Below are positions 30,421 to 53,211 of a stretch of DNA of 64,000 nucleotides, in pieces. Under the pieces are notes generated by a model that made no database searches, was not told the DNA's origin, and saw only the letters and a list, made by a program, of their open reading frames with translations. The stretch lies in NCBI RefSeq assembly GCF_000585375.1, contig NZ_KK073874.1, positions 3,410,001 to 3,474,000 of the forward strand. The letters are read 5' to 3'. This DNA is from Cryptosporangium arvum DSM 44712. Its GTDB lineage: Bacteria; Actinomycetota; Actinomycetes; Mycobacteriales; Cryptosporangiaceae. A program made the position numbers and the translations under genes. The stretch's first letter is position 1. Each line of letters opens with the position of its first letter.

Positions 30421-30451
30421 ACGCTAGCGGCGCTCAGTGACGAATCAGTGC
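30421..30451 (-). promoter_or_regulatory. CACT box promoter (site g) for the flavoprotein gene
   Basis: Read leftward: GCACTGATTC, GTCACTGAGC, GCCGCTAGCGT. CACT occurs at positions 2 and 13 of the 31-bp box, and the -10-like TAGCGT ends it. It is the reverse-facing partner of the site at 30462-30492, with only ten bases between the two boxes. Confidence 0.7.
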
Positions 30452-30461
30452 GCTCGCGGGC

Positions 30462-30492
30462 GCACTGATCACGCATCCGGCCTTCCTAGCGT
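30462..30492 (+). promoter_or_regulatory. CACT box promoter (site a) for the universal stress gene
   Basis: Reads GCACTGATCA, CGCATCCGGC, CTTCCTAGCGT. The first repeat is perfect and the second is degenerate (GCATC). The TTCCTAGCGT end is identical to sites b, c and d. The predicted transcript start is about 30499, 50 bases before the ATG at 30551. Confidence 0.7.
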
Positions 30493-30550
30493 CCGGCCGA
30501 ACGTCTCCCGCCGGTGTGCATCCCGGTGACCCCGCCGAAAGGTGCCTCGC

Positions 30551-31393
30551 ATGGCAACGAAGTACGCCCACGTTCTGGTCGGCACTGATGGATCGGAGAA
30601 GGCCGACCGTGCCGTGCGGTGGGCTGCCAGGGAAGCGGTGCTGCGCGGCGAACCGCTCCGCATCGTCCACGCGTTTCTCTGGCCGTATCTGCGCGTGTCG
30701 ACCGCTCCGGTGCCCGGTCTGCCGGGCACCGGCCTCCGGCAGGCGGCCGAGGATTTGCTCGCGGCGGCCGTGACGACAGCCCGTGGGGCCGCCCCCGGAG
30801 TCGACGTGACGACGAGTCTGCCGGTGGGCGCACCGGTCGGAGTGCTGCGGGCGGCCGCCGAAAACGCGGAGCTGGTCGTGGTCGGTAGCGACGGACTCGG
30901 GCGCGTTGCCGGGCTGATCGTCGGGTCTGTGAGTACGGATCTGGTTGCGCGTTCCCGTTGCCCGCTCGTCGTGGTTACCGGTCATGCCGGCGAACGCATC
31001 GGCGAGCCCCGGGTCGTTGCGGGTATCGACGGATCGGACCACCACGAGGTGAAGGCGGTGCTGGATTTCACGTTCCGGGAAGCGGCCTGGCGCACAGCTT
31101 CGGTGACCGTCGTGCACGCCACCCGCGGCCGGCGCGCGGACAGCGAGGGCGATACCGCGGTCCCGACTGCGATGGCCGCGTGGTCCGACCGGTATCCCGA
31201 CGTTGCCGTCCGCTACGTGGACGACTCGCGATCGCCCGCTACTGCCCTCGCCGCTCAGGCTGATGACGCTGATCTGCTGGTGCTCGGTACCCGCGGTCGG
31301 GGCGGGCTGGCCGGTCTGGTGCGCGGCTCCGTCGGTCAGGTCCTTCTTCAACACGCACGCTGTCCGGTCGCCGTGGTCCACGGCGACACCTGA
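30551..31393 (+). CDS. tandem universal stress protein (UspA family)
   Basis: About 280 residues with two UspA domains (about 5-140 and 150-280). Each has the ATP-binding pattern G-x2-G-x9-G-S/T: GSDGLGRVAGLIVGS and GTRGRGGLAGLVRGS. The first strand motifs are HVLVGTDGSEKAD and RVVAGIDGSDHHE. Tandem Usp proteins are common in actinomycetes and often respond to hypoxia or stationary phase. ATG 30551 is preferred over GTG 30542 because AAAGG lies at a suitable distance. It is driven by a CACT box and diverges from the SdhA-like gene. Confidence 0.93.
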   Translation: MATKYAHVLVGTDGSEKADRAVRWAAREAVLRGEPLRIVHAFLWPYLRVSTAPVPGLPGTGLRQAAEDLLAAAVTTARGAAPGVDVTTSLPVGAPVGVLRAAAENAELVVVGSDGLGRVAGLIVGSVSTDLVARSRCPLVVVTGHAGERIGEPRVVAGIDGSDHHEVKAVLDFTFREAAWRTASVTVVHATRGRRADSEGDTAVPTAMAAWSDRYPDVAVRYVDDSRSPATALAAQADDADLLVLGTRGRGGLAGLVRGSVGQVLLQHARCPVAVVHGDT

Positions 31394-31440
31394 CGCTCCG
31401 GCCGGTGGTGACTCCTCTCCGAAACAGGTTGAATGTCCGT

Positions 31441-34146
31441 ATGACGTCACCGCCCATCGTGATCGGCCGCGCCGCCGAACTCGGTGAGCTCGACCGTTTG
31501 ATCCGGGAGTTACCTCGGGGCGGAGGTGTGCTGACGCTGGAGGGCGAAGCGGGAATCGGTAAGACGGCCCTCGTCCTCGCCGCGGCAAGGCTCGCCGGGC
31601 GCGCCGGTTATCGGGTATTGAGCTGTGGCGCCGTCGGCGTCGAGGCCGCTGTCGGCTTCGACGGGCTCCGACGACTGTTGGAGCCGGTGCTCGGCCGCGC
31701 CGAGGCTCTGCCCGAGCGACAGCGCGTCGCACTGTTGACAGCGTTGGGTCGCTGCGAGGGCCCGGCGCCTGACCTGCTGTTACTCGGCCTCGCGACGCTG
31801 AGGCTCCTCGAGGAGGTCGCCGCCGAGCGGCCCTTGCTCCTGGTGGTGGAGGACATCCGCCAGATCGACCCCTCCAGCCTCGACGTGGTCGGTTTCGTCA
31901 GCCGCCGATTGACCAATACGCCGATTCTTCTGCTGGCCACCCAGCGTCCGGCTGCTGGAGCGGATGCCCCACCGCTCGCCGGGCCGGTGCTCCGGATCGC
32001 GCGATTGAGCGAGGCCGCAGCCGGCGAGGTCGCCGACCAGTTGGGTGTCACGCCGGACACGCGGCGGATGCTGCTCGACAGGGCTGCCGGAAATCCGCTC
32101 GCACTCCGCGAACTGGCCACCGCAGTGCACCAGCATGGCCTGACGAGCGTTACCGGCGTGCCCGAGCACCTGCCGATGACCGACCTCCTGGAACGGACGT
32201 TCGTCGGTCAGATCTCCGAGTTCCCGGAATCCACCCGTCGGATGCTCTTGGTGCTCGCGGCCGCGGAAGATCTCCCACTCATCGACGTGCTCGCCGCCGC
32301 CCGCCGCTTCGCTGTCGAACCGGAAGACCTGGACGTCGCAGAGACCGCCGGACTGATCCGGATCAGCGGTGACCGGGCGGTCTTCCGGCATCCGCTAGTC
32401 GCGTCCGCGGTCTATCGTGCCGGAGACGCCGCGGAACGCGACGCGGTCCACCGGGCATTGTCCGAGACGACGGTGGACGCGGACCGCGCCGCCTGGCACC
32501 GCGCGCTGGCCACTCATGCCGAAGACGAGTCGGTCGCCGCCGCGCTGGCCTCGGCCGGGCAGCGTGCCCGCCGCCGGGGAGCCCTGGCCGACGCCGGCCG
32601 GGCGTTGTGTCGTGCTGCCGCGCTCACCGCGTCCGGCGAGGTTCGCGCGGCCCGTCTGGTCGAAGCGTCCGAGGCGTTCCGGGGTGCAGGGAGATGGTAC
32701 GACGCCGTCCGAGCCGGACAGGAAGCCATCCCGCTGACCACGGATCCCGCGCTGCTGGTTCCACTCGCGCAGACCTACGCGATGATGAGCGACCTCGGCG
32801 TACCGGGCGACGTCGACCAGGCGGTTTTCGACGAGATCCTGGGCCGGTTACCCAGCGATCAGGGGCGCGTCGGCGTCCTGAGCGCCGCGGCGATGGCGGC
32901 GGTCTCGCGGTTCGAACCGCGGGCCTCGATCCGCGAGGCTCTGGAACCGGTCGGCCGGTCGATCGACGATCCGCTGCTGATCGCGGTGCTCACCGTTCTC
33001 GATCCCGTGCGCTACGCGACGAGGTTCCGGCAGCAATTCTCCGGTGCGATACGCAGTACGGACGACCCGGTCCACTTGATGGTGCTCGGTCGGGCGGCGG
33101 AGGCCGTGCACGACGTGCCCGGCTCGGTCCAGGCTCTGGATCGAGCCGTCGATGGTTTCCGCCGGGCCGGTTCACCGCGTGACGTCTGCCTCGCGCTGGC
33201 CCGCCGGGGGAGGGTTCGGCTGGCCGCCGGGCTGTTGACCGCCGCGGACGGCGATCTGCGCGCGTCGCTCCGGGTCGCCGAGGATCTCGAGCTGACGACG
33301 ATCGTCGCGTCCGCCGTCGTCGCGCTCGCCCGGCTGCGGCTGCGGCGCGGTGATTCCACCGCGGCCACCGACGCGCTGTCCAGGGAGGCAGAGCTGGTGG
33401 GTGTACACCCGCGCCGTCCGCTGGCGGCGGATTTCGCGTGGACTCGCGGCCTGCTCGCTCTGGCCGAAGGACGCGCCGGCGACGCGTGGGAGCGCTTTCG
33501 CGCGGTGTCCGTCGACCGCGAGACGTCACGCTGGGCCCTGGCCGATCTGGTCGAGGCCGGGATCGCTTCCGGACGTGGCGACGAGGTGCAGGACTTCGTC
33601 GAGGACGCCGCTCGGGAGGCCGCCGTTTTCCGGTCGCCACACCTGACGTCGAGCGTCCACCGTAGCCAGGCGCTGCTAGGGAGCGGCGTGGCCACCGACG
33701 CCCTCTACCAGGAGGCGATCCGGATCGGCCGGGAAGGCGTGGGTGGTCTCGAGTTGGCACGCACCCATCTGTTGTACGGCGCGTGGCTCCGTCAGCAGCG
33801 TCGGGTCGTGGAGGCCCGCGAACCGCTCACCGACGCCCTCCAGGAGTTCGACCGGTTACGCGTCGCTCCCTTGGCCGAACGCGCTGCGGCCGAACTGCGC
33901 GCCGCCGGTGTCAGCCCGGCTCGAGACGGCCGGGCGGCGACCGTTGACGCGGCAGCCGTGTTGACGCCGCAGGAGCTGCAGATCGCGCGTCTCGCTGCGG
34001 CCGGACTGACCAATCGGGAAATCGCAGACCAGGTCTTCCTGTCGCACCGCACGGTCGGAGCGCACCTGTACCGCATCTATCCGAAGCTGGGCATATCAAC
34101 CCGCAACGAGCTGGCGGGCTTGCTCGGGCGATCGGGCGTGGCCTGA
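31441..34146 (+). CDS. LAL-type LuxR regulator (ATPase + HTH)
   Basis: About 901 residues. Walker A EGEAGIGKTALV, Walker B LLLVVEDIRQIDPSS, a long helical repeat region, and the C-terminal HTH LTPQELQIARLAAAGLTNRE, IADQVFLSHRTVGAHLYRIYPKLG. Complete by comparison with the family. The start is the ATG at MTSPPIVIGR, preceded by twelve codons of open frame with no better site. It lies 47 bases after the stress protein gene on the same strand, so it may share the CACT box transcript. No box of its own was found. Confidence 0.9.
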   Translation: MTSPPIVIGRAAELGELDRLIRELPRGGGVLTLEGEAGIGKTALVLAAARLAGRAGYRVLSCGAVGVEAAVGFDGLRRLLEPVLGRAEALPERQRVALLTALGRCEGPAPDLLLLGLATLRLLEEVAAERPLLLVVEDIRQIDPSSLDVVGFVSRRLTNTPILLLATQRPAAGADAPPLAGPVLRIARLSEAAAGEVADQLGVTPDTRRMLLDRAAGNPLALRELATAVHQHGLTSVTGVPEHLPMTDLLERTFVGQISEFPESTRRMLLVLAAAEDLPLIDVLAAARRFAVEPEDLDVAETAGLIRISGDRAVFRHPLVASAVYRAGDAAERDAVHRALSETTVDADRAAWHRALATHAEDESVAAALASAGQRARRRGALADAGRALCRAAALTASGEVRAARLVEASEAFRGAGRWYDAVRAGQEAIPLTTDPALLVPLAQTYAMMSDLGVPGDVDQAVFDEILGRLPSDQGRVGVLSAAAMAAVSRFEPRASIREALEPVGRSIDDPLLIAVLTVLDPVRYATRFRQQFSGAIRSTDDPVHLMVLGRAAEAVHDVPGSVQALDRAVDGFRRAGSPRDVCLALARRGRVRLAAGLLTAADGDLRASLRVAEDLELTTIVASAVVALARLRLRRGDSTAATDALSREAELVGVHPRRPLAADFAWTRGLLALAEGRAGDAWERFRAVSVDRETSRWALADLVEAGIASGRGDEVQDFVEDAAREAAVFRSPHLTSSVHRSQALLGSGVATDALYQEAIRIGREGVGGLELARTHLLYGAWLRQQRRVVEAREPLTDALQEFDRLRVAPLAERAAAELRAAGVSPARDGRAATVDAAAVLTPQELQIARLAAAGLTNREIADQVFLSHRTVGAHLYRIYPKLGISTRNELAGLLGRSGVA

Positions 34147-34315
34147 AGCCCGCCGTCGTCAGAGTCGTCCGACGTATTACCCCGCGCCTGCGCTGCGGAC
34201 AGGATCAGTTCCCAGGGCAAGTGCAGACGGGACGGCCCGGCGGACGGAGGTTCCACAGTGACGAGCCAAGTCGAAGACGACGCTTTCATCTCGCCGCCGG
34301 TGTGGTGACAGGGCT

Positions 34316-37111
34316 GTGCTGCGATTCACGATTCTCGGGCCGGTAGGCGTTCGGCGCGGCGACCTCGAATTGGAGGCGGGCGGGCGGCAGCAGCGGGTGG
34401 TGCTCGCGTTGCTGCTGGCCAGGGCGGGTTCGAACGTGAGCGTGTCCGAGCTGATCGACGCTCTCTGGGAGGAAGACCCGCCTACGAGCGCGGTGAACGT
34501 CGTCCACCGCCACATCGGCATGCTGCGTCGAGTGATCGAGCCGGACCTGCCGGTGCGCATGGTGGGCAACTACATCATTCGCACCGCGGCCGGGTACCGG
34601 CTCCGGGCGGACATCGAGTCGCTGGACCTGCTCCGCTTCCGGGCACTGGCCGACCAGGCGCGGGACGCCACCGCACCCGGCCGGGCGATCCGCCTCTACA
34701 CCGAGGCGCTCACGCTCTGGCAGGGTCCGTCCGCCGCGGGACTCGAATCGATGTCTGGCGTCCACCCGGTGTGCGTCGCGATCGACGCCGAGTGCTCGCT
34801 GGTCGTCCGCGAGGCGGCCGACGTCGCGCTGCGCGACGGGCCGGTGGGCCTGGTGATCCCCGCACTGCGGCGGGCCGCACAGCTCAGCCCGTTGGACGAG
34901 GCCCTGCAGGCGCGGCTCATCCTTTTGCTGGCGGCCGACGGCAGGCAGTCCGAGGCCGTCGACCTGTTCCGGACGGTCCGGCGGCGTCTGGACGAGGAGC
35001 TCGGCGTCGAACCGTCGCGGGAGCTGTTCGACGCGTACGAACGTCTGCTGCACCAGCGGACCACACCGTCCACGCGACCGGCACGCCCCGTGCCGATGCC
35101 GGCCGGGCCGCAGCCGGTTCCGGCGCAGCTCCCGGCGGACCACCCGTTCTTCAGCGGCCGGGGCGAGGTGCTGGCGCGGGCCGAAGCTCTCCTCGCGGAG
35201 GACCGGCGGCACAACCGGCCGACGGTCGCGCTGGCGATCGACGGGATGCCCGGCGTCGGCAAGACGACGGTCGCCGTGCACCTCGGCCACCGGTTGGCCC
35301 TGGATTATCCGGACGGCCAGCTCTACGCCGACCTCCGGGGCTTTGCCGACGAGGGCGCGGCGATGGCCCCGGCCGAGGCGTTGCAAGGCTTCCTAAGTTC
35401 CCTCGGCGTTCCACTGTCCGACATCCCGACGGAGCTGCACGCGTTGGCCGGGCTGTACCGCAGCATGCTCGCCGGTCGGAGCGTGCTGATCGTTCTCGAC
35501 AACTGCCGCGACTACGAGCAACTGCGCCACCTCCTGCCGGCGGCGCCCAAGAGCCTGGTGATCGTCACCAGCCGCACCCGCCTGACGGGCCTGATCGCCG
35601 GTGGCGGCGGTCAACCGCTGCCCTTGGACCTGCCGAGCCGAGCCGAGGCCCAGGCGTTCGTGGCGCGGCGGCTAGGCCACGAGCGGGTGGCCGCGGAACC
35701 CGCTGCGGTGGACGAGATCGTCGACCGCAGCGGCCGGTTGCCGCTGGCGCTGGCGCTGGTGACCGCACGGGCCGCGGTGTTGCCCGGCACCACGCTCACG
35801 GCGATCGCCGCCGAACTGGCCACGACCCGGGAACTGGTCGGCTTCGGGCCGGACGCGGCGACCGATCTGCGGGTGGTCTTCTCCTGGTCGTACCGTGCTC
35901 TGACGCCGGACGCGGCCCGCCTGTTCCGGTTGTTGCCGCTTCACCCCGGACCGGATCTGACTCCGGTCTCGGCCGCCGCCCTCGCCGGCATCGACACCCG
36001 CACCGGCGTCGCCCTGCTGGGTGAATTGACGTCCCACATGATGTTGCACGGCCGAGACGGACGGCACCAGCTGCACGGTCTGCTACGCGCCTACGCCGAG
36101 TACCTGAGCGAGAAGCTCGATGACCCGGCGTTGCGCAGGGCCGCGACGCTCCGCGTGTTCGAGCACTACCGGCGGGCGGCGCACGCCGCCCACCGGTGGC
36201 TGGAGCCGCAGCTGCCGGCGCCGCAACCGCCTCCGGCCCCGGACGGCGTGATGCCGCGACGATTCCTCGGGCAGGACGACGCCATGGCGTGGTTCACCGC
36301 CGAGCGGCAGGTGCTGGCCGCGATCGTCACCCAGGCCCAGGACGCTCCTGCGCTCGCCTGGCACACCGCGCTGGCTATGCAGGACTTCCTGCACTTCAGC
36401 GGCCGGACACCGGAATGGGCCGCGATCGCCCGCGCGGGTCTGGACGCCGCGATGGCTGACGGTGACGTAGAGGGACAGGCCCGGCTGCTTCGCAGCCTGT
36501 CCGGCGCGCTGTTCATGCTCCGCGACCTCGACGAGGCGATGACGCACCTGCGGGAGGCCCGCCGCATCGTCGAATCGATCGGCGACGACACCCAGCTGGC
36601 CGCCGTCGATCTCAACTCGGCCTACGTGCAGGGTGCCCAGCGACGCCATGCCGACGCCATCCGGCACGGCGAGCACGCACTGGACACCTACCGCCGGACC
36701 GGCGACGTACGCAATCAGGCCGCTGCGCTCCGCGTCATCGCGGCGAACGTCGCCGCACTGGGGCGGCGGGACGAGGCGGTGGATCTGTTGCGGGATGCGC
36801 TGGCGCTGTCGAACGCCGACGATGACGTGCGAGGTGCCGGCCATGGCTTGGACCTGCTCGGTAAGACGTACCGGCAGGTCGGTGACCGCCGGAACGCGGT
36901 CGTCCATTGGCACCGCGCGGCCGAGAGTTACCGCCGGGCTGGCACCCCCGCGGCCCGGGCCGCGGTGCTGCTGGCGATCGGCGACCTGCACCATCAGACC
37001 GGCGACCGCAACGCCGGACGCGCTGCCTGGATCGAGGCGCGCGACGCCCTCGGTGACGCGGCGGGACCGCTGGTCCGCGCGCTGCAGTCCCGCCTCGTCG
37101 AGCCGGCGTGA
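34316..37111 (+). CDS. AfsR/SARP-family regulator (OmpR-type DNA-binding, BTAD, NB-ARC, TPR)
   Basis: About 931 residues. The N-terminal winged HTH (about 10-95: LGPVGVRRGDLELEAGGRQQ, LIDALWEEDPPTSAVNVVH) is followed by a bacterial transcriptional activation domain (about 100-245), an NB-ARC ATPase with Walker A GMPGVGKTTVA near 309-316 and LIVLDNCRDYEQL, then TPR-like repeats to the end. This is the AfsR architecture. SARPs bind direct repeats spaced one helical turn apart, just upstream of the -10. Two divergent pairs of such boxes flank this gene (30421-30492 and 37988-38059), making it the leading candidate for their regulator (inference). The GTG start is chosen from the domain boundary. 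Confidence 0.92.
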   Translation: MLRFTILGPVGVRRGDLELEAGGRQQRVVLALLLARAGSNVSVSELIDALWEEDPPTSAVNVVHRHIGMLRRVIEPDLPVRMVGNYIIRTAAGYRLRADIESLDLLRFRALADQARDATAPGRAIRLYTEALTLWQGPSAAGLESMSGVHPVCVAIDAECSLVVREAADVALRDGPVGLVIPALRRAAQLSPLDEALQARLILLLAADGRQSEAVDLFRTVRRRLDEELGVEPSRELFDAYERLLHQRTTPSTRPARPVPMPAGPQPVPAQLPADHPFFSGRGEVLARAEALLAEDRRHNRPTVALAIDGMPGVGKTTVAVHLGHRLALDYPDGQLYADLRGFADEGAAMAPAEALQGFLSSLGVPLSDIPTELHALAGLYRSMLAGRSVLIVLDNCRDYEQLRHLLPAAPKSLVIVTSRTRLTGLIAGGGGQPLPLDLPSRAEAQAFVARRLGHERVAAEPAAVDEIVDRSGRLPLALALVTARAAVLPGTTLTAIAAELATTRELVGFGPDAATDLRVVFSWSYRALTPDAARLFRLLPLHPGPDLTPVSAAALAGIDTRTGVALLGELTSHMMLHGRDGRHQLHGLLRAYAEYLSEKLDDPALRRAATLRVFEHYRRAAHAAHRWLEPQLPAPQPPPAPDGVMPRRFLGQDDAMAWFTAERQVLAAIVTQAQDAPALAWHTALAMQDFLHFSGRTPEWAAIARAGLDAAMADGDVEGQARLLRSLSGALFMLRDLDEAMTHLREARRIVESIGDDTQLAAVDLNSAYVQGAQRRHADAIRHGEHALDTYRRTGDVRNQAAALRVIAANVAALGRRDEAVDLLRDALALSNADDDVRGAGHGLDLLGKTYRQVGDRRNAVVHWHRAAESYRRAGTPAARAAVLLAIGDLHHQTGDRNAGRAAWIEARDALGDAAGPLVRALQSRLVEPA

Positions 37112-37981
37112 TCAGGGTGTCCCGTGAAACCGGCGTAGCGCCGCCAGCGTGGCCGCAGGGTTCTGCTCGGGGATGAAGTGCCCGCTCTCGATCGCTTCGC
37201 CGGTCACGTCGTCGGCCCAGTTCCGCCAGACGGCCAGCGGGTCGTACCAGGTACCCACGGCCCCGCTGCCTGCCCAGAGCACCTGCACGGGGCAGGAGAT
37301 CCGGTTTCCGGCCGCGCGGTCCGCGTCGTCGTCGGCGCGGTCGCACGTCGCGCCGGCCCGGTAGTCCTCGCAGATCGCGTGGACGACCCGCGGATCTCGG
37401 ACGTGTCGGGCGTATTCGCCGACGGCCGGGAACGTCCGCATCGCGCCGCCGAACTGGGCGTCGAAGAAGAACCACTCGGGGTCGGCGGCGATCAGCGTCT
37501 CGGGCAGCGGGTAGGGCTGGGCGAGCACGGCCCAGTGCCAGTAGCCCAGGGCGAACCGGTCGTCGGCGCGAGCCCACACCTCACCGGTCGGCACGATGTC
37601 CAGCACGGTCAGCCGACGGACGGCGGCGGGACGGTCCAGCGCCAGGCGATATCCGACCCGGCCGCCGCGGTCGTGCCCGGCCACGTCGAACGTCTCGAAT
37701 CCCAGGTGACGCATGAGTGCGATCGCGTCCCGGGCCATCGCGCGCTTGCCGTAGGTCGAGTGGTCGGCGACCGTGGCGGGCGCGCTGCTCTCGCCGTAAC
37801 CGCGAAGATCCGGGGCGACGACGGTGAAGCCTTCGGCGAGTGCGTCCGCGATCGGATTCCACAGCTCGTGGGTCTCGGGGTAGCCGTGCAGGAGCAGCAG
37901 CGGCGGGCCGTCGCCGCCGTACCGCACTCGTAGCTCCACGTCGCCGACGTCGATCCGGGTGGTGGTGAATCGGTCTGCCAT
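37112..37981 (-). CDS. alpha/beta hydrolase, haloacetate-dehalogenase-like
   Basis: About 289 residues. The nucleophile elbow is GHDRGGR with Asp104, not Ser, as in epoxide hydrolases and haloalkane/haloacetate dehalogenases. Several residues match fluoroacetate dehalogenase: the Arg pair in DRGGR (105 and 108), the His149-Trp150 halide-site pair in YWHW, the cap Tyr in DYRAG, Asp near VLDIVPT (128), and the catalytic His268 in SGHFIPE. It would be expected to hydrolyse 2-haloacids or epoxides in the cytoplasm. The ATG lies only six bases after the -10 of CACT box f, so the message is probably leaderless. It ends directly against the AfsR gene. Confidence 0.85.
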   Translation of the reverse strand: MADRFTTTRIDVGDVELRVRYGGDGPPLLLLHGYPETHELWNPIADALAEGFTVVAPDLRGYGESSAPATVADHSTYGKRAMARDAIALMRHLGFETFDVAGHDRGGRVGYRLALDRPAAVRRLTVLDIVPTGEVWARADDRFALGYWHWAVLAQPYPLPETLIAADPEWFFFDAQFGGAMRTFPAVGEYARHVRDPRVVHAICEDYRAGATCDRADDDADRAAGNRISCPVQVLWAGSGAVGTWYDPLAVWRNWADDVTGEAIESGHFIPEQNPAATLAALRRFHGTP

Positions 37982-37987
37982 GCCGCG

Positions 37988-38018
37988 AAGTTAGGCCCTC
38001 GCAGTGACGCCTCAGTGC
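37988..38018 (-). promoter_or_regulatory. CACT box promoter (site f) for the dehalogenase-like gene
   Basis: Read leftward: GCACTGAGGC, GTCACTGCGA, GGGCCTAACTT. Repeats are at positions 2 and 13 and the -10 is TAACTT. The predicted start of transcription coincides with the ATG at 37981. Forms a divergent pair with site b, ten bases apart. Confidence 0.65.
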
Positions 38019-38028
38019 GGTTCGGTGC

Positions 38029-38059
38029 GCACTGGTTCGGCACTCGGTCTTCCTAGCGT
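38029..38059 (+). promoter_or_regulatory. CACT box promoter (site b) for the esterase operon
   Basis: Reads GCACTGGTTC, GGCACTCGGT, CTTCCTAGCGT. Both CACT repeats are perfect and 11 bp apart. The leader to the GTG at 38095 is about 30 bases. Confidence 0.75.
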
Positions 38060-39752: not shown

Positions 39753-39759
39753 TCCGTCC

Positions 39760-39789
39760 GTGGGTGGCGGGGACACCCCCGCCACCCAC
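39760..39789 (+). terminator. strong GC hairpin between the two paralogous hydrolases
   Basis: A perfect 13-bp stem (GTGGGTGGCGGGG, 39760-39772, with its complement at 39777-39789) has a four-base loop. There is no T-run, as is usual in actinomycete intrinsic terminators. It could terminate the operon or attenuate the secreted paralogue downstream. Confidence 0.6.
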
Positions 39790-39809
39790 ACGACAAGAAA
39801 GGCACCCCT

Positions 39810-40619: not shown

Positions 40620-40625
40620 CCGATC

Positions 40626-40660
40626 ACCGCGCCGGCGTGCCGGGCCCACGCCGGCGCGGT
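40626..40660 (+). terminator. hairpin terminator after the secreted hydrolase
   Basis: A perfect 14-bp stem (ACCGCGCCGGCGTG at 40626-40639 and its complement at 40647-40660) with a seven-base loop starts seven bases after the stop codon. No T-run. It separates the hydrolase operon from the sigma-factor remnant. Confidence 0.75.
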
Positions 40661-40675
40661 CAGGGAAGGACAGAA

Positions 40676-41366: not shown

Positions 41367-41389
41367 CCCGACTTCCGAACGGACGGTTC

Positions 41390-45344: not shown

Positions 45345-48101
45345 GTGCACGATGAGCTGGTAGGCCGCGAGGCCGAGTTGGCAGTCATCGACGAGGTGCT
45401 GAACCGCACCCGGCCGGGGCTGTTCTTTCGAGGTGAGAGTGGGATCGGCAAGACGGCGCTGCTACGCGAGAGCACACACCGGGCGGGACAGCAGGGCTAC
45501 ACGGTGCTGTGGTGCCGCGGCGTCCAGCACGAGCAGGCCCTGCGCTACAGCGGGCTTCATCAGGCGCTCCATCCACTCTTGTCCGGGACCCCAGAGCTGC
45601 CGCCGAGCGAGCGGCAGGCCATGGAGACGCTTTTCGGGATCTCGGACGGACCGTCACCGTGCCACTCGCTGGTCCGCCGAGCCGCACTCGGCCTGCTCGT
45701 TCGGGCGGCCTCCCGGACGCCCGTGCTGCTCGTGCTCGACGATTTCGATGCGCTCGACCCCGACAGCGTCGATGTCGTCGAGCACGTACTGGAGCACCGG
45801 GGAGAGGCGCCGCTGGTCGTGCTGGCGGCGGCAGGCACCGGCACTGCCGGCCCGCTGGGGGTGGCCCGGTGGGACCTCGCCGGGCTGTCGGACGCCGCCG
45901 CGTCCGCACTCGTCGAGGCCGTGGCCCCTCGGCTCGCCGCGGTCGATCGCGACGTCGTGCGGGACCTCGCGCAGGGCAATCCGCTGGCACTGGCCGAATG
46001 GTCCCGGAACCTGATGGATCACAACGTACCCCTGGGTACGTGCCGGTACGACCTGATCGATTTCCCGGTCCGGCTGACGCAGGCTTTCGGGGTCTCCCGG
46101 CACAAGTTTCCTCGCCGGACGTCGCGCCTGTTGCTGCTCGTCGCGGCGTTTGACGGCGACATCGCTGATCTTCCGGGTGAGGAGGGCGAGCTCTGGCGCG
46201 CCGCCGCCGTGCTCGGGCTGACGCGTTCCGACCTGTGCCCCGCCGAGCAGGCGGGCGTGGTGACCGTGGAGCGCGGCGAGGTTCTTTTCTGTCACCCGCT
46301 GACCCGGGCAGTGCACTACGGCACGGCGTCGCCGGCGGCGCGGGTGGAGGTGCACAGGGCGTTCGCCGATACCCTGACTCCCGATTCGGACCGGGTGGTG
46401 TGGCATCGCGCCGCGGCGACCGAGGGCCGCGACGATCTGCTGGCTGCGCGCCTGCACGCCATCGGCGAAAAGGCTAGGAGGAGCGGGACCGTCGCCAGGG
46501 CCGCGACTGCCTACGAGTGGGCGGCCCGGCTCTCCACCGCGAGTGACGCCGCCGCATACCGTCTCGGCCTGGCGGCCGACGCGGCGCTGCGTTCCGGGCA
46601 TCGGCGGCTCGGCGCCCAGCTGATCTCGGAGGCCCGATCGCTCGCCGACGGCCCGGCCGCCGTTCCTGATCTGATCCTTCCGGAGTATTACGCGCGGCTC
46701 ATGAACGACGTCCCCGGTCTGAGCGCCGACGACCTGCTGGACGGCCTTCCCGAGCTACCGTCCACCCACCGGGGGCTCGCCACGATGATCGCCGCGATGG
46801 ACGTCTACAACTCCGGTGACCCGGGCGGGAAAGCGGAGCGGATCGAGGGAGCGACGCTTCGGCTCGGTTCGGCGGCGGACGATCCGCTGCGCGTCATCAC
46901 GTTGTCCGTGGTCGCACCCCAGCGACACGCACGCGAACTGATCCCGATCGTTCGACGGCTCAGCGGACCGGCCGCGGAGCTCGAGTCCACGTATCTGATG
47001 GTCGGCATGGGGGGTGCCGCCGAGGCGCTGCGGTTGATCCCCGAAGCGGAGCGGTGCTACCGGGCCGCAGTCGCGGCGTCAGTCACCGACAGTTCGTTGC
47101 TCGAACGATGCATGTCGATGGTCCGCCACGCATCGCTGCTGACCCTGACCGGCGCGTTCGCCGAGGCGCTGGCGGAGGCGGAGGATGTCCACCGACTCGC
47201 CGTCCGACTCGACCTGACCGAGGTCGCGGCCTCGTCGGCCGCGACCGCCGCCCGGGTGTACGCCTGGCAGGGCAACGTTCCCGCTGCTGCGGAGGCCCTC
47301 ACCCGCAGCACTCGCCTGGCCCATCTGGCACATCCCCATCCGGCGACCCTCACCGAGGTGGCGTCGGCGCGTGCCGCCGTCGCCCTGGTCCAGGGTCGAC
47401 CGGCGGACGCCGTACACGCGCTGCTCGGGGTGGCCGAGCACCGCATCTGGGCCGGAGCCACGATCGGTGACCTGGCCGAGGCCGCGAGCAAGCTGGACAG
47501 GGGATTCGCCGTGGTGGACACGGTGAAGAGTGTCGCCGAGGACGCGGATGTCTTCGCCTCGGATCTGCTGCGCCACCTGACGCTGCGAGCCCGCGCACTC
47601 GGCGGGGAGAGCGCGCTGTTCGACGCCGCTCTCGCTGTTCCCGGCGAAGAGCGATTTCCGGTGGAGTGGGCTCGGACGCGCCTGGCCTACGGCGAATGGC
47701 TGCGTCGAGGCCGTCACAAGATCCGGGCCCGCTCGCATCTCGCAGCGGCGATGGCGGTGTTCGCCCGGGTGGAAGCGGTCCCCTGGCGTGACCGCGCGGC
47801 GGCGGAGATGCGTGCGGCCGGCGGCGCCGTGGAATCGTCCGGCATGGATTCGGACGGCCACCCCGGCCGGGTTGTCCTGACACCGCAGGAGCGACAAGTC
47901 GCCCGGCTGGCGGGCGGCGGCCTGTCGAACCGGGACATCGCGGGCCGCCTCGCGCTGTCGCCACGCACTGTCGGAACCCACCTGTCGAACGCCTACGCGA
48001 AGCTCGGAATCCGTGGGCGGGCCGAGTTGGCAGCGCTCGTTCGGGATCGCCCGGAGCCGGAGACAACGGGTGTTGCCGCGCAGACCCGCAGCTCACGCTG
48101 A
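45345..48101 (+). CDS. LAL-type LuxR regulator (LAL-B, divergent from LAL-A)
   Basis: About 918 residues. VGREAELAVIDEVLN at the start, Walker A RGESGIGKTALL, Walker B VLLVLDDFDALDPDS, helical middle, and C-terminal HTH LTPQERQVARLAGGGLSNRD, IAGRLALSPRTVGTHLSNAYAKLG. The GTG start at 45345 is backed by AGGAGGG five bases upstream; 90 codons of earlier open frame cross the divergent promoter and are excluded. Belongs to a different LAL subgroup from LAL-A. Its first ~20 residues resemble the remnant at 61326. Confidence 0.9.
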   Translation: MHDELVGREAELAVIDEVLNRTRPGLFFRGESGIGKTALLRESTHRAGQQGYTVLWCRGVQHEQALRYSGLHQALHPLLSGTPELPPSERQAMETLFGISDGPSPCHSLVRRAALGLLVRAASRTPVLLVLDDFDALDPDSVDVVEHVLEHRGEAPLVVLAAAGTGTAGPLGVARWDLAGLSDAAASALVEAVAPRLAAVDRDVVRDLAQGNPLALAEWSRNLMDHNVPLGTCRYDLIDFPVRLTQAFGVSRHKFPRRTSRLLLLVAAFDGDIADLPGEEGELWRAAAVLGLTRSDLCPAEQAGVVTVERGEVLFCHPLTRAVHYGTASPAARVEVHRAFADTLTPDSDRVVWHRAAATEGRDDLLAARLHAIGEKARRSGTVARAATAYEWAARLSTASDAAAYRLGLAADAALRSGHRRLGAQLISEARSLADGPAAVPDLILPEYYARLMNDVPGLSADDLLDGLPELPSTHRGLATMIAAMDVYNSGDPGGKAERIEGATLRLGSAADDPLRVITLSVVAPQRHARELIPIVRRLSGPAAELESTYLMVGMGGAAEALRLIPEAERCYRAAVAASVTDSSLLERCMSMVRHASLLTLTGAFAEALAEAEDVHRLAVRLDLTEVAASSAATAARVYAWQGNVPAAAEALTRSTRLAHLAHPHPATLTEVASARAAVALVQGRPADAVHALLGVAEHRIWAGATIGDLAEAASKLDRGFAVVDTVKSVAEDADVFASDLLRHLTLRARALGGESALFDAALAVPGEERFPVEWARTRLAYGEWLRRGRHKIRARSHLAAAMAVFARVEAVPWRDRAAAEMRAAGGAVESSGMDSDGHPGRVVLTPQERQVARLAGGGLSNRDIAGRLALSPRTVGTHLSNAYAKLGIRGRAELAALVRDRPEPETTGVAAQTRSSR

Positions 48102-49253
48102 CTGCCGCTGGGCGGCGGTCAGGCGCCTGGCGACCACCGCGACGACCTTTCCTCGCACCCAGGCCAGAAACGGGTTGGACGGCACGAAGAACTGCGCCTT
48201 CAGATGGGCGAGAAGCTGATGCTTGCGGACCAGCGGTCGCATCCGCTTCTCCCAGGCGGTGAACGCTGCGGGGAGGTCGTCCGGATGCGCGGCCAGCGCG
48301 TCGCCGAGCGCGACCCCGCCGATCATTCCCGCGCTGGCGCCCATGCCGGAGTAGAGCGTGAGGCACCAGGCCGAGTCACCCAGTAGCACGACCCGCCCGT
48401 CGTGCCAGCGCGGCATCCGTACCTGGTGTACGGAGTCGAACAAGCGGTCGGGTTGACGCCGCAGCTGATCGAGCGCGTAGGCGACCATGCCCCCACCGTC
48501 CAGCCCGGCGAAACGGGAAGTGAGCGTGGTGATCGCGTCGTTCCGGAACTCCGCGTCGACGTCTCGCGTCCGGTAGGCGAACAGCGCGGTGGGAGTGCGA
48601 TCGCGGAACGGGAAGATCCACAGGGAGCGTCCCGGTTGGGCGAGGATCACCTGGTCGCTGTCGGGGTAACCAGGCACCTGATGGCCGAGGGAGAACGCGC
48701 AGACGATGGCGTGCATGGACCGCATGAACTTCTCGTCCGGGCCGAAGACCAGCCGGCGTACGGTCGAGCGCAGACCGTCCGCTCCGACCACGAGGTCGTA
48801 GTCCTCCTCGTAGGTCCGGTCACCCCCGGTGTCGAGCAGCGTCACCCGGGCCGCTTCCGCCGTCTGCTGCACCGCGACCGGCACCGTGGCGAAACGCACC
48901 TCGATCCGGCCCTCGATCCGTTTCCGCAGTGCCTCCTCGATGTCGCCGCGCATCACCCCCTCCGGATTGCCCGGCTGGTCCAGGAACCCGGCGCTGTGGT
49001 GGCGTCTGCCGGCCCGGTCCACCGTCCAGGTGTGGTGTTCGGGCGGCGTGCGTAGATGCATGTGCGCGAGCACGCCGAGCCGCGCCGCTGCCGCCTTGCC
49101 GACCGGGAAGAGCCCGACGAAGTAGCCGCCGGTCCGGCGTTCCGGGGAGCGCTCCACGACGACCGGCGTCCATCCCGCCTCGTGGAGCCTGATCGCGGTG
49201 GCCATCCCCGAGATCCCGAGGCCGACCACCAGGACTCGGCGCTGCCCGGTCAT
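48093..49253 (-). CDS. FAD-dependent monooxygenase (PHBH-fold)
   Basis: About 386 residues. VLVVGLGISGMATAIRLHEAGW (FAD-binding, GxGxxG), YDLVVGADGLRSTVRRL (the DG fingerprint) and VVLLGDSAWCLTLYSGMGAS (the GD fingerprint) identify the class A flavoprotein hydroxylase family. In the last motif the usual proline after GDAAH is absent. The start at MTGQRRVL overlaps the upstream stop as ATGA. Co-transcribed with the NmrA-like gene from CACT box c. It hydroxylates an unidentified, probably aromatic or polyketide-like substrate. Confidence 0.88.
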   Translation of the reverse strand: MTGQRRVLVVGLGISGMATAIRLHEAGWTPVVVERSPERRTGGYFVGLFPVGKAAAARLGVLAHMHLRTPPEHHTWTVDRAGRRHHSAGFLDQPGNPEGVMRGDIEEALRKRIEGRIEVRFATVPVAVQQTAEAARVTLLDTGGDRTYEEDYDLVVGADGLRSTVRRLVFGPDEKFMRSMHAIVCAFSLGHQVPGYPDSDQVILAQPGRSLWIFPFRDRTPTALFAYRTRDVDAEFRNDAITTLTSRFAGLDGGGMVAYALDQLRRQPDRLFDSVHQVRMPRWHDGRVVLLGDSAWCLTLYSGMGASAGMIGGVALGDALAAHPDDLPAAFTAWEKRMRPLVRKHQLLAHLKAQFFVPSNPFLAWVRGKVVAVVARRLTAAQRQSA

Positions 49254-49993
49254 CGGGCCGACCACTCCGCCAGACCGGTGTTGCCCAGCTTGGCTCCGGC
49301 CCCGGGAAGCAGGAGCCGCTCGCCGAGGGGCACGCCGAAGAACGGTGTCGCCGACGGGTCGGTGACGACCGTGCGCTCGTCGCCTCGGACCGCGCTCAGC
49401 CGGCGGGCGAACTCGTCGAACGCCATCGCCTCGGGCCCGGCGACCTCCACGATGCCCTGGGCGGCCGGACCCGTCACGGTCGTCGCCAGCGCGTTCACCA
49501 GGTCGGGCACGGCGATCGGCTGCACCAGCGTGCCCGGCAGCCGTACGGTGCCTCCCTCGACGCTGTTGTCGACCAGCATCGCGAGGAAGTCGAAGAACTG
49601 CGTGGATCGCACGATGGTGTACGGCACGTCGCCCTCGTGCACGGCCTGTTCCTGCGCCAGCTTGGCCCGGTAGTAGCCCAACTCGTGGGGGCGGTCGACC
49701 CCGACGATGGACAACGTGACGTGGTGCCCGACCCCGGCTTTGCTTTCGGCGGTCAGCAGGTTGCGGGTGGAGGTCCGGAAGAAGTCGGTGGCCGGGCCCT
49801 CCGACATGTCGGGCGAATTGGTGACGTCCAGGGTCGCCGCCGCGCCCTCCAGAGCGGCGTCCAGACCGGTGCCGGTAATGGTGTCGAACCCGGTCGTGAT
49901 GTCCGCGGCGACCACCTCGTGCCCCTGGTCCCGCAAGTTGGCGACGACGCTACGGCCGACCCGGCCGGCTCCTCCGACGACGACGATCTTCAT
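49250..49993 (-). CDS. NmrA-like / atypical SDR NAD(P)-binding protein
   Basis: About 247 residues. MKIVVVGGAGRVGRSVVANL is the dinucleotide-binding start; IVRSTQFFDFLAML and YYRAKLAQEQAV are typical of the NmrA/quinone-oxidoreductase-2-like atypical SDRs. Lys in YYRAKL could be catalytic. The start has GGGAGGA about ten bases upstream; 14 earlier codons are excluded because they enter the promoter. The transcript probably starts near 50029 from CACT box c and includes the FAD monooxygenase downstream. Confidence 0.85.
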   Translation of the reverse strand: MKIVVVGGAGRVGRSVVANLRDQGHEVVAADITTGFDTITGTGLDAALEGAAATLDVTNSPDMSEGPATDFFRTSTRNLLTAESKAGVGHHVTLSIVGVDRPHELGYYRAKLAQEQAVHEGDVPYTIVRSTQFFDFLAMLVDNSVEGGTVRLPGTLVQPIAVPDLVNALATTVTGPAAQGIVEVAGPEAMAFDEFARRLSAVRGDERTVVTDPSATPFFGVPLGERLLLPGAGAKLGNTGLAEWSAR

Positions 49994-52476
49994 GACTGTG
50001 TTCCTCCCGCGTGGACGACCGTTCGATGCGCCCACACGCTAGGAACACTCAGTGCGGATTGAGTGACGTTCGCCTCCTGCGAAGTCAGCACGTTCTCGGG
50101 GTCGGCTTTGCGGCTGTGGACCGTCCCGCCGGTCGCCTCCAGCGCACTCTTCGCGCGGGCCGCGAATCCGGCCGCGCCGCGACTCGACAGGACGCTGTGA
50201 GCGGCCTGAAGCTGCTCGCGGGCGTCGACTCGACGGCGCTGCCGACGCAGCCATTCCCCGTACGCCAGGCGGGCGCGGCCCTGGTGAGCGGCGAGGCCAC
50301 CGCGTCCGAGCCGTTCGATTGCCTCACAGTGGTGGTGGTCCTCGGCGCCGGTCTGCGTCGCGGCCTCGACCAGCTCGGACGCGATTCGCGACGTGAACGT
50401 CACCTGGCGGATGTGGGCCAGCTCGACGGAACCCGCCCGCACGGCGTCCTCGTACCGTCCGAGTCCGTTGGCCAGAGTCGCTTCCGCGTAATGCGCGGTG
50501 CTGAGCGGCGCGCCGTCTCCGGTCGCGGCTGCGCCCCGCCGGAGCTCCGCCGTGTGCCGCGCGACCTCCGCGGAGTCTCCCCGCCAGGCCGCGAGCTGCA
50601 CCCTGGTGTGCGGCGGGAACGTGTACCCGATGGCCTCGCCGATCACGTCGACCTCATCCACGAGCAGCTCGGCCTTGTCGAGCCGGCCCAGGTTCAGGCA
50701 GGCCGTCCCGGCGTACGACAGGATGATCGGCAATGCGGTCAGTAGCCCCTCGGACCGTGCGCTCACGATCTGGCGCTGGCACAGGGCCAACAGCGTTTGC
50801 ACGTCCCAGACGTCGGCGGCCGCGATCGCCTCGAGACCGATCGACTGCGGCGGGATCAGGTCCACCGGCGAGTCGAGCAGCCCGGCGAGTGCAGTGCGCA
50901 GCACCGGTACGGCCTCCGCCCGCGCGCCGATCTCAATCAGCGCCTGGCCCCGGATCAGGACGTCGACCGGATGGGTCGAGTCCGGGTCGGTCTCGTCGAA
51001 CACCTCCTGGCAGATGTCCCGCCAGGGATAGCCGTCGACGCCCGGCCCGTGGTCCGCGTCGTCGTCAGGGCGACCACCCTGGGCTATCGCCACCCGCAGC
51101 GCGCCGTACTGGGCGCTGCGGGTCAGTTCCGCGTCCACGCCCGCGAGCTGCCGTGCGGCGGCAAGGATGTCGTGGGCGATCTCGGGGGTGCGGCTTCGGG
51201 CGAAGTCGGCCTGTGCCAGCAGCAGACCGGCCAGCCCTGACCCGCGGCGGTCGAGAGCAGCGACCGGCAGGTTCTCCAGCAGTATCCGAGCGGCCTCCGG
51301 CGCACCGGCATCGAGCTTGGCCTGCGCCGCGGCGAGCATGCGGCGAGCCCGGTCCGACGGTGCCGGGCTCAGCGCCGCGGCGCGTTCGAGGAAGGCGGCG
51401 GCTGCCGAGACACCACCGCGGCGGCGCGCGCGGACCGACGATCCGTCGAGTTCGGCGGCGACGCTCTCGTCCGGTTCGACGGTGGCATAGCCGCGATGCC
51501 AGGCACGGCGGTCCGGATCGTCCTCGGCGATAGTCGCCTCGGCCAGTACCGCGTGCGACCGACGGCGCTCGGGGGGTGACACGGCCCGGTAGATGCCCGA
51601 TCTGATCAGCGGATGGCGGAACTCCACGCGGGAGTCGATCGTGAGGTCGCCGGTACGCTCGGCTTCCTCGACCGCCTCCCCGTCGATCGACAGCGCGCGG
51701 ACCGCCCGCCGGAGCAGCGACGGGTCGCCCGTCGGGTCCGCCGCAGCGAGCAGCATTACCTGGCGGGCGTCCGCCCGGAGGCCGCTGATCCGGTCGAGCA
51801 GGCTGTTCTCGATGCGGGTGGCCAGCGGCATCGCGTCGTTCACCGTGAAGCCACCGGCCAGGTCGGCCGGGGACCGTCCGAGCGGGAGTTCGCGGAGCGC
51901 CAGGGGATTGCCCTTGGCCTCCGCGAGAATCTGGTCCCGGATCCGGCCGTCGATGGGTGCGACCACCAGTTGGGCGAGCAGCCGCTTGGCGTCCGCTTCG
52001 GCGAGACCGGTGAGCGCCAGTTCGGGAAGTCGTGAGAACACGGCGCCGATCGTCCGCATCACGAAAACCAGCACGGACAGCCCGATCAGGAACGGGCCCG
52101 GCACCGGGCCGGCGCGGAGCCCGAGGGCCACCTCCAGCGCGTCCCGCCGGGGCTCCGGCAGACTCCCGACCCGGTCGAGCAGGCCGAACAACAGCATGTG
52201 AAGCCCGGCGTACGGCAGTTCCATCTCCGACTCGACGCCGACGGTGCATTCGACGCGGAGGCCTTCGCCGAACCGGGCGAGCGCCGTGTGTGTCAGCGCG
52301 GTCTTCCCGATGCCCGCCTCTCCGTGTACTACAAGAGTCGCGCTGGCGCCCTCACGCCCTCCGTCGAAGAGCCTTCGTAAGGCCTCGAGCTCAGCGGTTC
52401 GTCCACGAAGGTCCGAACGGGTGCGGACACGATCGAACTCTAGCGGGCCGTACCCGCAGGTAGCGTGAGCCGGCAC
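49990..52476 (-). pseudogene. decayed LAL-type LuxR regulator (LAL-C), lacking Walker B region and HTH
   Basis: An 828-codon open frame clearly paralogous to LAL-A, with Walker A HGEAGIGKTAL intact. Three in-frame deletions are visible against LAL-A. About 44 residues holding Walker B are missing after PFLIGL (junction near 52075). Close to 40 residues are missing near 50340. The HTH is gone: the frame reads LTSQEANV and then runs through the promoter box of the next gene (TQSALSVPSVW...) to a stop at 49990. It can no longer bind DNA through a LuxR domain or hydrolyse ATP normally. A box (site d) still stands upstream, so a protein may be made. Confidence 0.8.
50036..50066 (-). promoter_or_regulatory. 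CACT box promoter (site c) for the NmrA/monooxygenase operon
   Basis: Read leftward: TCACTCAATC, CGCACTGAGT, GTTCCTAGCGT. It lies inside the 3' end of the decayed LAL-C frame, starting exactly where that protein stops resembling its family. Leader to the ATG at 49993 about 36 bases. Confidence 0.75.
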
Positions 52477-52524
52477 CGACTCGGGACGAGTTCAGGCGGG
52501 CCGGGCCGGTCGGTCATGCGGGCA

Positions 52525-52565
52525 ACGCTAGGAACGCCCGGTGCGGGACGAGTGACGATCGAGTG
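52525..52565 (-). promoter_or_regulatory. CACT box promoter (site d) with a third repeat, upstream of LAL-C
   Basis: Read leftward: a third CACTCGATCGT copy (52555-52565), then TCACTCGTCC, CGCACCGGGC, GTTCCTAGCGT. Three repeats stand at exact 11-bp intervals (CACT, CACT, CACC). It lies between the short ECF sigma gene and LAL-C, on the LAL-C strand. Confidence 0.72.
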
Positions 52566-52575
52566 CCAGGGCCGT

Positions 52576-53172
52576 TCAGGCCGACGCGAGGGCGACGAGC
52601 GCGGCGGCGTCGCCCGTCCGTGAGGCTCGGAGAAAGGCGCTCAGCAGCACCAGGTGCGCCCCCGGCGCAGCGGGAGCCCGGGTCCGCTCGGACACGCTGA
52701 GCCTCAGCCGGGCACGTCGGGCGAGCTGCCGGGCATTCGTTTCGCTGAGGCCGAGAGCGGAACCGATCTGGTGATACGGCCACCCGAACGCCTCCCGCAG
52801 GAGGTAGATGACCCGTTCCCGGGGCAGGAGGACGTCCGTGAGCAGCCGAACCACCGACCGTAAGTCGTCGGCCTGTTCGGCGGTCCGGGCGGGATCGGCG
52901 TCCGGCCCCTCGACGCGTTCCAACCACGATCCGGCCGGGATCGCCGGTCGGCGGCGCGCCGATCGGATCGCACTCACCGATAGCCGGGCCGTGGTCCGGC
53001 ACAGGAAAGCCGAGGGGTCCACGACGACGGAGCGGTCCGTGCGCTGCCAGCGCATCCAGGCGTCCTGCACGATGTCGTCCGCCTCGGCGATTCCGCCGGC
53101 GACGTGATGCGCGATGGCCAGTAGCCGATCGCGGACGTCCAGGAACTCGCCGAGACCCAGGTCTGTGCTCAT
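52576..53172 (-). CDS. ECF sigma factor (SigJ/ECF41-like), C-terminally short
   Basis: About 198 residues. Sigma region 2 (LLAIAHHVAGGIAEADDIVQ, DAWMRWQRTD) and region 4 (LPRERVIYLLREAFGWPYHQ, IGSALGLSETNARQLARRAR) are both present. SigJ/ECF41-type proteins normally continue for about 100 residues with a SnoaL/NTF2-like regulatory domain starting near LLxAFLxASRxGD. Here LVLLSAFLRASRTGDAAALV is followed at once by a stop. ECF41 factors lacking this tail can be constitutively active, by family knowledge. The ATG is nine bases after the -10 of CACT box e, so leader is very short or absent. No anti-sigma gene is adjacent. Confidence 0.85.
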   Translation of the reverse strand: MSTDLGLGEFLDVRDRLLAIAHHVAGGIAEADDIVQDAWMRWQRTDRSVVVDPSAFLCRTTARLSVSAIRSARRRPAIPAGSWLERVEGPDADPARTAEQADDLRSVVRLLTDVLLPRERVIYLLREAFGWPYHQIGSALGLSETNARQLARRARLRLSVSERTRAPAAPGAHLVLLSAFLRASRTGDAAALVALASA

Positions 53173-53180
53173 GGCCCGGG

Positions 53181-53211
53181 ACGCTAGGGAGCGGCAGTGC
53201 CGAACGAGTGT
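53181..53211 (-). promoter_or_regulatory. CACT box promoter (site e) for the ECF sigma factor
   Basis: Read leftward: ACACTCGTTC, GGCACTGCCG, CTCCCTAGCGT. Both repeats are perfect. It starts at the last base of the NADH dehydrogenase stop codon and ends nine bases before the sigma ATG, a compact, near-leaderless promoter. Confidence 0.75.

Follow-up and report, generated by a model that had tools for sequence, protein, structure and literature searches.

We analyzed a 64,000-nucleotide stretch of the Cryptosporangium arvum DSM 44712 genome (hereafter the window; positions 3410001–3474000 of the single 9,195,993-bp contig, genome label G000), where a 31-bp promoter-like element made of CACT direct repeats followed by a −10 hexamer, here called the box, occurs repeatedly. 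Ten boxes lie within 86 kb in the window and to its left, in a region that contains two paralogous modules, each of which encodes one AfsR-type large SARP (Streptomyces antibiotic regulatory protein): SARP_B in the window (34316–37111, + strand, 931 amino acids) and SARP_A in module A (3374288–3377101). We consider it highly likely that the ten boxes are SARP-dependent promoters of a local regulon under SARP_B and/or SARP_A, and this is very probably a genuine SARP regulon with its own class of operator. Coordinates below are window positions, except that seven-digit numbers are contig positions.

An earlier note on this DNA listed seven 31-bp sites, at 30421–30451 (−), 30462–30492 (+), 37988–38018 (−), 38029–38059 (+), 50036–50066 (−), 52525–52555 (−) and 53181–53211 (−), and we found all of them at these coordinates and on these strands, identical to the last letter. 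The number seven holds for the window, where a pattern allowing two mismatches matched exactly these sites (100 shuffles gave 0.16 matches on average and none reached seven), but not for the genome, which has ten; the other three, 3377075 (+), 3381072 (−) and 3382370 (+), are 27–33 kb left of the window. The consensus of the ten sites is CACTggttCgG CACTGngccttCC TAGCGT. When each of the seven window sites was scored with a matrix built without it, the scores were 16.0–36.7 bits, and the full matrix scored no higher than 18.2 bits in 20 random sequences with matching dinucleotide composition, so that the weakest site, 37988–38018 (16.0 bits, with TAACTT replacing TAGCGT), is not outstanding by itself. 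As a correction to the earlier note, two pairs of sites, 3377075/38029 and 3381072/53181, are paralogous copies together with their flanks (84.7–86.5% identity over 178–248 bp); because two of the ten thus copy two others, the number of independent sites is about eight.

The boxes are confined to this part of the genome. The loose pattern CACT-N7-CACT-N9-TANNNT had eight exact matches in 9.2 Mb, all in one 86-kb stretch, and the pattern CACTSN6CACYN7CCTAGNGT had seven, the reversed control giving none in either case. A fuller pattern with at most one mismatch had nine matches, and all exact and one-mismatch matches fall within 3377075–3463210. When two mismatches were allowed, one extra window site and five scattered matches appeared, compared with six in all for the reversed control. 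One of the scattered matches, at 3790715, is near a SigF-like gene akin to that of module A, but no array was found around this match, and none of the other four had a clear partner gene beside it. The earlier note had offered, as an observation that would speak against it, a weight matrix hitting the whole genome equally; tested with a pattern rather than a matrix, this was not what we saw, and the restriction to a local region is supported by the genome-wide scan with its empty controls. A chance origin of the boxes, which we also considered, was ruled out by the random sequences, the reversed controls and the genome-wide counts.

The geometry of the box is that of a SARP operator. Each repeat is 11 bp long and reads approximately CACTSNTTCSG, and according to the rule published for SARPs, repeats are 11 or 22 bp apart and 8 bp from the −10 (PMC10936776). 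The direct repeats of the boxes, 11 bp apart, satisfy this spacing, and the distance from the last repeat to the −10 is 8 bp if the repeat is read as a heptamer ending in CACTS, a register that we chose. A TTGACA-like −35 is absent, as the earlier note had said: the best match has only two or three of the six bases at all ten sites. In three genes of this genome (6, 7 and 8 bases) and two genes in relatives, an ATG follows the −10 hexamer by 6–8 nucleotides, as expected for leaderless messages given a −10 at that place. The SARP-style promoter architecture proposed previously is thus supported.

The protein encoded at 34316–37111 had been named as the likely regulator, and Pfam, a PDB search and the predicted fold all support this, as does the co-occurrence of its clade with the box described below. 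SARP_B scored 32.1 bits with Trans_reg_C (cut-off 26.2), 90 with BTAD (22.1), 24.9 with NB-ARC (23.5) and 47.3 with TPR_12 (30.1), and the domain set of a large SARP is therefore present. SARP_A, 75% identical to SARP_B, scored 89.5 with BTAD and, in the sequence read from a late start, 25.4 with Trans_reg_C, slightly under the cut-off. An AlphaFold model of SARP_B residues 1–262 (mean pLDDT 89.9) had as its top PDB matches the AfsR chains in the promoter complexes 8k60 and 8hvr (E 2.3e-15 to 5.7e-14; 33–34% identity), making AfsR the nearest solved relative of the modelled part. The NCBIfam AfsR equivalog was not reached (393.3 bits against a cut-off of 1430).

In an ungapped alignment, R87, T88, S91, R92, R94 and K95 of AfsR correspond to H64, R65, G68, M69, R71 and R72 of SARP_B. 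T88 and R92 of AfsR contact bases, and T88 has been termed highly conserved among SARPs (PMC10936776). In all 27 aligned relatives this position has Arg and not Thr, the Thr being a conserved residue of SARPs rather than a family-defining one; H64, R65 and G68 were invariant in the same 27, whose loci were found partly through this helix, and the position of Arg92 varied among Met, Leu, Thr and Ala. Some control SARPs also carry Arg at 65, but their positions 64 and 68 are then Gln and Ser, so that R65 alone cannot be the code. The length of the protein from the matched start ranged from 314 to 1206 amino acids in box-bearing relatives.

Site–gene pairs are conserved with the SARP clade across genera. 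Among 200 genomes drawn from the order, 57 match SARP_B at E 1e-100 or better, and a subset of these loci was examined with its surroundings. One contig of Micromonospora humi contains relatives of the esterase (82–84%), the SARP (61%), a LAL (LuxR-type, large ATP-binding) regulator (59%), a sigma factor (57%) and the DUF4331 protein (67%), with boxes ahead of the esterase, stress protein and sigma genes. We also scanned 160 Micromonospora genomes for exact boxes irrespective of SARPs and found matches in seven. A SARP of at least 60% identity occurs in five of the 160, and four of these five (G055, G150, G231, G275) have exact boxes, while in the fifth, G307, the stress protein gene is preceded by a box of three repeats that is one base off the exact pattern. 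In the remaining 155 genomes, single exact matches were seen in three (G259, G288, G322), with no relatives of the genes of this region found within ~1.5 kb of them. Fisher's exact test for exact matches in 4 of 5 versus 3 of 155 gave 6.6e-6. Among five genomes of the own family, a close SARP and clustered boxes occur together only in G000; G001–G003 have no box and no SARP above ~41% identity, and G004 has one exact match and no SARP match at E 1e-100.

A search of a species collection with an alignment of the SARP domain gave 74 loci, among the best 80 matches listed. The box pattern with at most one mismatch had 20 matches in these loci versus 1 in the reversed control, all 20 of them in five genera (Micromonospora, Actinoplanes, Paractinoplanes, Catellatospora and Asanoa); matches with two mismatches numbered 31 versus 22 and are hence taken as evidence only where their context backs them. 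In relatives, boxes precede genes for sigma factors, esterases, stress proteins, NAD(P)H-binding proteins, hydrolases and DUF4331 proteins, and in Micromonospora also genes for a STAS protein and an amino acid permease. Esterase relatives of 76–84% identity come with boxes in G055, G231, G150, G275, L089, L092 and L094, and related stress protein genes in G055, G231, G307, L087 and L091. In a quick SARP tree, made without bootstrap and with box labels that we assigned, the smallest clade with good support that reaches past the two paralogs has 19 SARPs, of which 18 are labelled with a box (L085, L099 and L101 from two-mismatch matches only); the remaining one, L105, is truncated at the end of its contig. 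In the sister clade of 20 SARPs, a four-repeat array was found near the SARP gene in 17 (L095, L102–L104, L106–L110, L112, L114–L116, L122, L126, L132 and L142). The repeats of this array are 11 bp long, typically CACT, CACT, CAGT and CATC and then CTAGG, and the array is located ~1.9–2.8 kb after the SARP start.

Two Micromonospora loci (L082:8930–12547 and L186:1330–4902) encode a SARP–LAL fusion of ~1200 amino acids in one frame, with Trans_reg_C, BTAD, AAA_16 and GerE, fusions of this make-up being seen in G150 and in a second contig of G231. Their LAL half is 59–60% identical to the product of the separate LAL gene 3384442 of C. arvum. Such a fusion points to joint action of SARP and LAL, and it also lends weight to the possibility that a LAL helps to read the boxes. 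Taken further, the boxes could be operators of a LAL regulator, with the SARP as a bystander or another target. LAL genes are indeed abundant around the boxes, relatives of LAL 3384442 (56–62% identity) go with boxes in several loci, and in the fusions a LAL of this kind, GerE domain included, is joined in frame to a SARP part. We nevertheless consider this reading unlikely, since no match to LAL 3384442 (E 1e-10) was found in the examined stretches of L087, L089, L091, L092, L093, L099 and G275, some of which end at contig ends, since CACT repeats occur in the SARP loci L121, L125 and L137 despite no match to this LAL, and since the 11-bp pitch and 8-bp spacing agree with the published SARP rule.

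Further details of the geometry come from 45 sites, ten from C. arvum and 35 from other genomes (24 without mismatch, 12 with one and nine with two). They were taken from 50 matches in seven regions and 10 of the 74 loci, the G307 box being outside the counts, after five two-mismatch matches had been dropped by eye as chance (module A 1704, window 12393, G055 11935, G231 35229 and L087 11832). The −10 hexamer was TAGCGT in 33 of the 45, TAGCTT in 6 and another sequence in 6, and a third repeat 11 bp upstream was present at 2 of the 10 own-genome sites versus 33 of the 35 sites in relatives. In seven box-bearing regions, the gap between CAC and CTAGCVT was nine bases in 21 cases and any other length from 3 to 15 in 2. 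These features bear on the idea that the box is read as a promoter by an alternative, extracytoplasmic function (ECF) sigma factor such as the SigJ-like one beside box 53181, which would control itself and its neighbours. A sigma gene is the most frequent gene behind a box, and common sequence and spacing would be expected of promoters that a single sigma factor reads. A row of two or three similar repeats at helical pitch, with the third in nearly all sites of relatives, nevertheless differs from a −35/−10 pair, the hexamer varies, and boxes are present in L087, L089 and L091 although the examined stretch has no match to the sigma gene, all of which makes the idea very unlikely. That the boxes are passengers of duplication or recombination, spread with gene cassettes and forming no working regulon, we regard as hardly credible: two paralogous flank pairs exist and box edges meet gene ends or junctions in several places, but apart from the copies most sites resemble one another just in the box and the bases next to it, and genes of the same types stand behind boxes in five other genera, with the spacer bases changed and the core kept.

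CACT repeats extend to more distant SARPs. Without reference to the motif, we tallied how often each tetramer recurs at pitches between 5 and 22 in 55 more distant loci picked by SARP peptide patterns alone, several of them again from Micromonospora. CACT at pitch 11 was top of the 256 tetramers, with 33 cases versus a mean of 6.2 at other pitches, and its complement AGTG gave the same signal; the Poisson values treat kin loci as independent, with 14 of the 33 places coming from one ortholog group, and some of the others seem to be chance repeats in coding sequence within the SARP gene. In 22 loci with less similar SARPs and no H-R helix, CACT had 6 cases, ~2 times the number at other pitches, and the −10 geometry was found in none. 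When the 74 SARP loci were sorted into 63 cells of pitch and distance, 24 arrays were at 11/13, 9 at 11/14 and 6 in the other 61 cells combined. By a combined criterion, promoter-like arrays were detected in 22 of the 74 loci (15 of 25 SARP clusters), in 0 of 74 reversed and in 0 of 23 controls (Fisher p 0.001); this criterion, including the distance 14, was set after part of the data had been seen, and the controls include L168, where no SARP helix was found. Eight loci from Streptomyces, Nonomuraea, Planotetraspora, Kitasatospora and Umezawaea have repeats of approximately CACTNTTTCRG, with variation, and a −10 one base farther. This wider class, like the three boxes outside the window and the second SARP, goes beyond the earlier note.

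On balance, we favor the view that SARPs with the recognition helix N-V-V-H-R-H/Y-x-G, in which Arg replaces the usual Thr88, are a subfamily that uses an operator alphabet of its own, two to four CACT repeats at exact helical pitch before a −10. This subfamily would span the genus of the window, Micromonospora and related genera, Streptomyces, Nonomuraea, Kitasatospora and others. The focal clade would then run a portable, non-antibiotic regulon of stress and ester metabolism, with gene-plus-box cassettes shuffling at the box edge and an input half exchanged among NB-ARC/TPR, none and a full LAL.

For the local regulon under SARP_B and/or SARP_A, we propose that these proteins bind side by side on the 11-bp direct repeats. 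By analogy with AfsR, two protomers would occupy the pair of repeats closest to the −10 and substitute for a −35 by carrying sigma region 4, holding the main sigma factor on a promoter without a usable −35 as AfsR does, and the third repeat may host a third protomer. Such direct binding and activation, presumably gated by the NB-ARC/TPR part, would turn on the local operons for the esterase and hydrolases, the flavoproteins, the stress protein, the SigJ-like sigma factor and the LAL regulator, and the SigJ-like target, which lacks most of the extension that restrains ECF41 factors, could relay the signal.

Several observations speak against such a regulon. Two of the ten own sites duplicate others, and degeneracy is seen at sites 30462 and 37988. 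Genes for LAL regulators are frequent in the vicinity, and two relatives have a LAL with its own helix-turn-helix (HTH) fused to the SARP part. Two further large SARPs of the genome (3931798 and 8305613) have similar helices and no such box in their 20-kb stretches, so that the helix as outlined may not suffice. By the criterion used above, 52 of the 74 loci have no array, among them Streptomyces groups with the same helix, implying either different operators there or operators outside the examined stretch. Lastly, the presence of a SARP is built in for the many loci that were found through it; the SARP-blind test is the Micromonospora scan, with five genomes.

Behind the ten boxes are genes for an SdhA-like flavoprotein, a stress protein with a LAL, an alpha/beta hydrolase, an NAD(P)H-binding protein with an FAD monooxygenase, an HTH-less LAL, a SigJ-like sigma factor and a cupin, two esterase operons and a sigma relic, none with an evident biosynthetic function. 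Box 30421 is the putative promoter of the SdhA/FrdA-like flavoprotein gene (28572–30302, −; FAD_binding_2 and Succ_DH_flav_C), with the start codon 118 nt downstream. Box 30462, whose second repeat is degenerate (CATC), would serve the universal stress protein gene (30542–31393, +; two Usp stretches) and the LAL gene (31405–34146, +; AAA_16 and GerE), probably co-transcribed across an 11-bp gap; the gene caller picked an internal start for the stress protein, and its probable start, judged by eye, is the ATG at 30551. Box 37988, with the −10 TAACTT, precedes the alpha/beta hydrolase gene (37112–37981, −), the ATG being 6 nt past the hexamer. Facing away from it, with 10 bp between the boxes, box 38029 is the putative promoter of the esterase operon, which starts with a hormone-sensitive-lipase-type esterase gene (38095–39048, +; Abhydrolase_3, best NCBIfam match under cut-off). 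The remainder of this presumed operon (39045–42412, +) consists of two Abhydrolase_6 genes (39045–39752 and 39855–40619), an apparently split sigma gene (40676–40897 and 41043–41366, +) and a DUF4331 gene (41390–42412). The split gene (40676–41366) is SigF-like and has an apparently intact paralog at 3379156–3379965. In both outward-facing pairs, 30421–30492 and 37988–38059, the boxes are 10 bp apart, and the pairs are 76% identical over 68 bp. Between the promoters of the two esterase operons, the DNA identity begins at the box.

Box 50036 would drive the genes for an NAD(P)H-binding protein (49250–49993, −; NAD_binding_10, the NmrA-like label coming from the earlier note) and an FAD monooxygenase (48093–49265, −). 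The earlier note, which had placed the sites just upstream of genes, needs correction here: this box is inside the 3′ coding end of the LAL gene 49990–52476, box 3377075 is almost entirely within the 3′ end of SARP_A, and box 3381072 precedes just a relic, approximately the first 20 codons of a sigma gene. The TAG in the −10 of the box that follows SARP_A (3377075–3377104) is also the stop codon of this gene, and the LAL gene 49990 loses its HTH at the start of box 50036. This LAL-type gene (49990–52476, −) is the putative target of box 52525, which has a third CACT repeat 11 bp upstream; it matched AAA_16 only, and no GerE was found in it at E 0.001 with Pfam, nor a LuxR-type HTH when its C-terminus was compared. 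Box 53181 starts where the oxidoreductase gene upstream of it has its stop codon and precedes the gene for the SigJ-like (ECF41-type) sigma factor (52576–53172, −; Sigma70_r2 and r4_2), whose ATG is 8 nt past the hexamer. Most of its C-terminal SnoaL-like part is missing, the SigJ and SigX4 models matching only to positions 195 of 293 and 188 of 281, under cut-off.

Besides its SARP, each module contains esterase, further hydrolase, DUF4331, MerR and epimerase genes and sigma genes or pieces of them, some genes of module A being named by likeness to window genes without a Pfam scan. Many LAL-type genes were seen between 24685 and 61213 of the window and in the left flank, those at 24685, 31405, 42409, 45075, 49990 and 58442 by Pfam and the leftward ones by look. 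About 9.4 kb right of the window and ~20 kb past the last box, a frame of at least 3521 amino acids runs from 3483437 (L019:9437–19999), with HAD-like, 3HCDH and ABC transporter genes near it, and this region may be a candidate polyketide synthase cluster; no box of at least 14 bits was found in 3474001–3494000.

SARPs have been studied as activators of antibiotic clusters and are used for waking silent clusters. If an operator word is really tied to a short helix, regulons could be predicted from sequence across a SARP subfamily, the way in which the Thr88 and Arg92 positions set specificity could be tested directly, and SARPs would be shown to control stress, sigma and hydrolase genes as a conserved regulon. 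The cluster-situated SARPs act on antibiotic clusters, whereas the genes here encode esterases, stress proteins, sigma factors and redox enzymes. Their heptamer is of the TCGAGC type and not CACT. Like the boxes, the sites of ActII-ORF4, DnrI, CcaR and others are heptameric direct repeats, with spacers of 4–15 nt, overlapping the −35 region, and three repeats have been reported for DnrI and ActII-ORF4 (PMC10972967). A CACT-type SARP operator was not found in the open-licence literature of PubMed Central, a set outside which most subscription papers lie, nor in passages of PMC12692060 and PMC10663231.

The SARP-LALs of the PimR type (PMC10972967, PMC5930380) combine a SARP part with an ATP-binding half, as the two Micromonospora fusions do, whereas SARP_A and SARP_B carry NB-ARC and TPR. 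Published SARP-LALs are said to be without a LuxR HTH, but the two fusions retain GerE, and the PimR site has three heptamers with 4-nt spacers and, unlike the boxes, does not overlap a −35 (PMC10972967). The sigma factor behind box 53181 resembles the ECF41 (SigJ-type) factors, but it lacks most of their SnoaL-like regulatory extension and appears here as a target; the extension restrains the factor, yet part of it has been reported to be necessary for activity (PMC8999054). The closest likeness is to AfsR and the afs box of the afsS promoter in Streptomyces coelicolor. SARP_B shares with AfsR the domain order of DNA-binding, BTA, nucleotide-binding and TPR domains, and the afs box is likewise made of two 11-bp direct repeats, 22 bp in all, over the position of a poor −35 (PMC10936776). 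On the other hand, the AfsR repeat is CGTT(T/C)ATCGNN (PMC10972967) and that of the boxes approximately CACTSNTTCSG, up to three or four repeats occur in relatives here, and Thr88 and Arg92 of AfsR are replaced by Arg65 and a variable residue, respectively.

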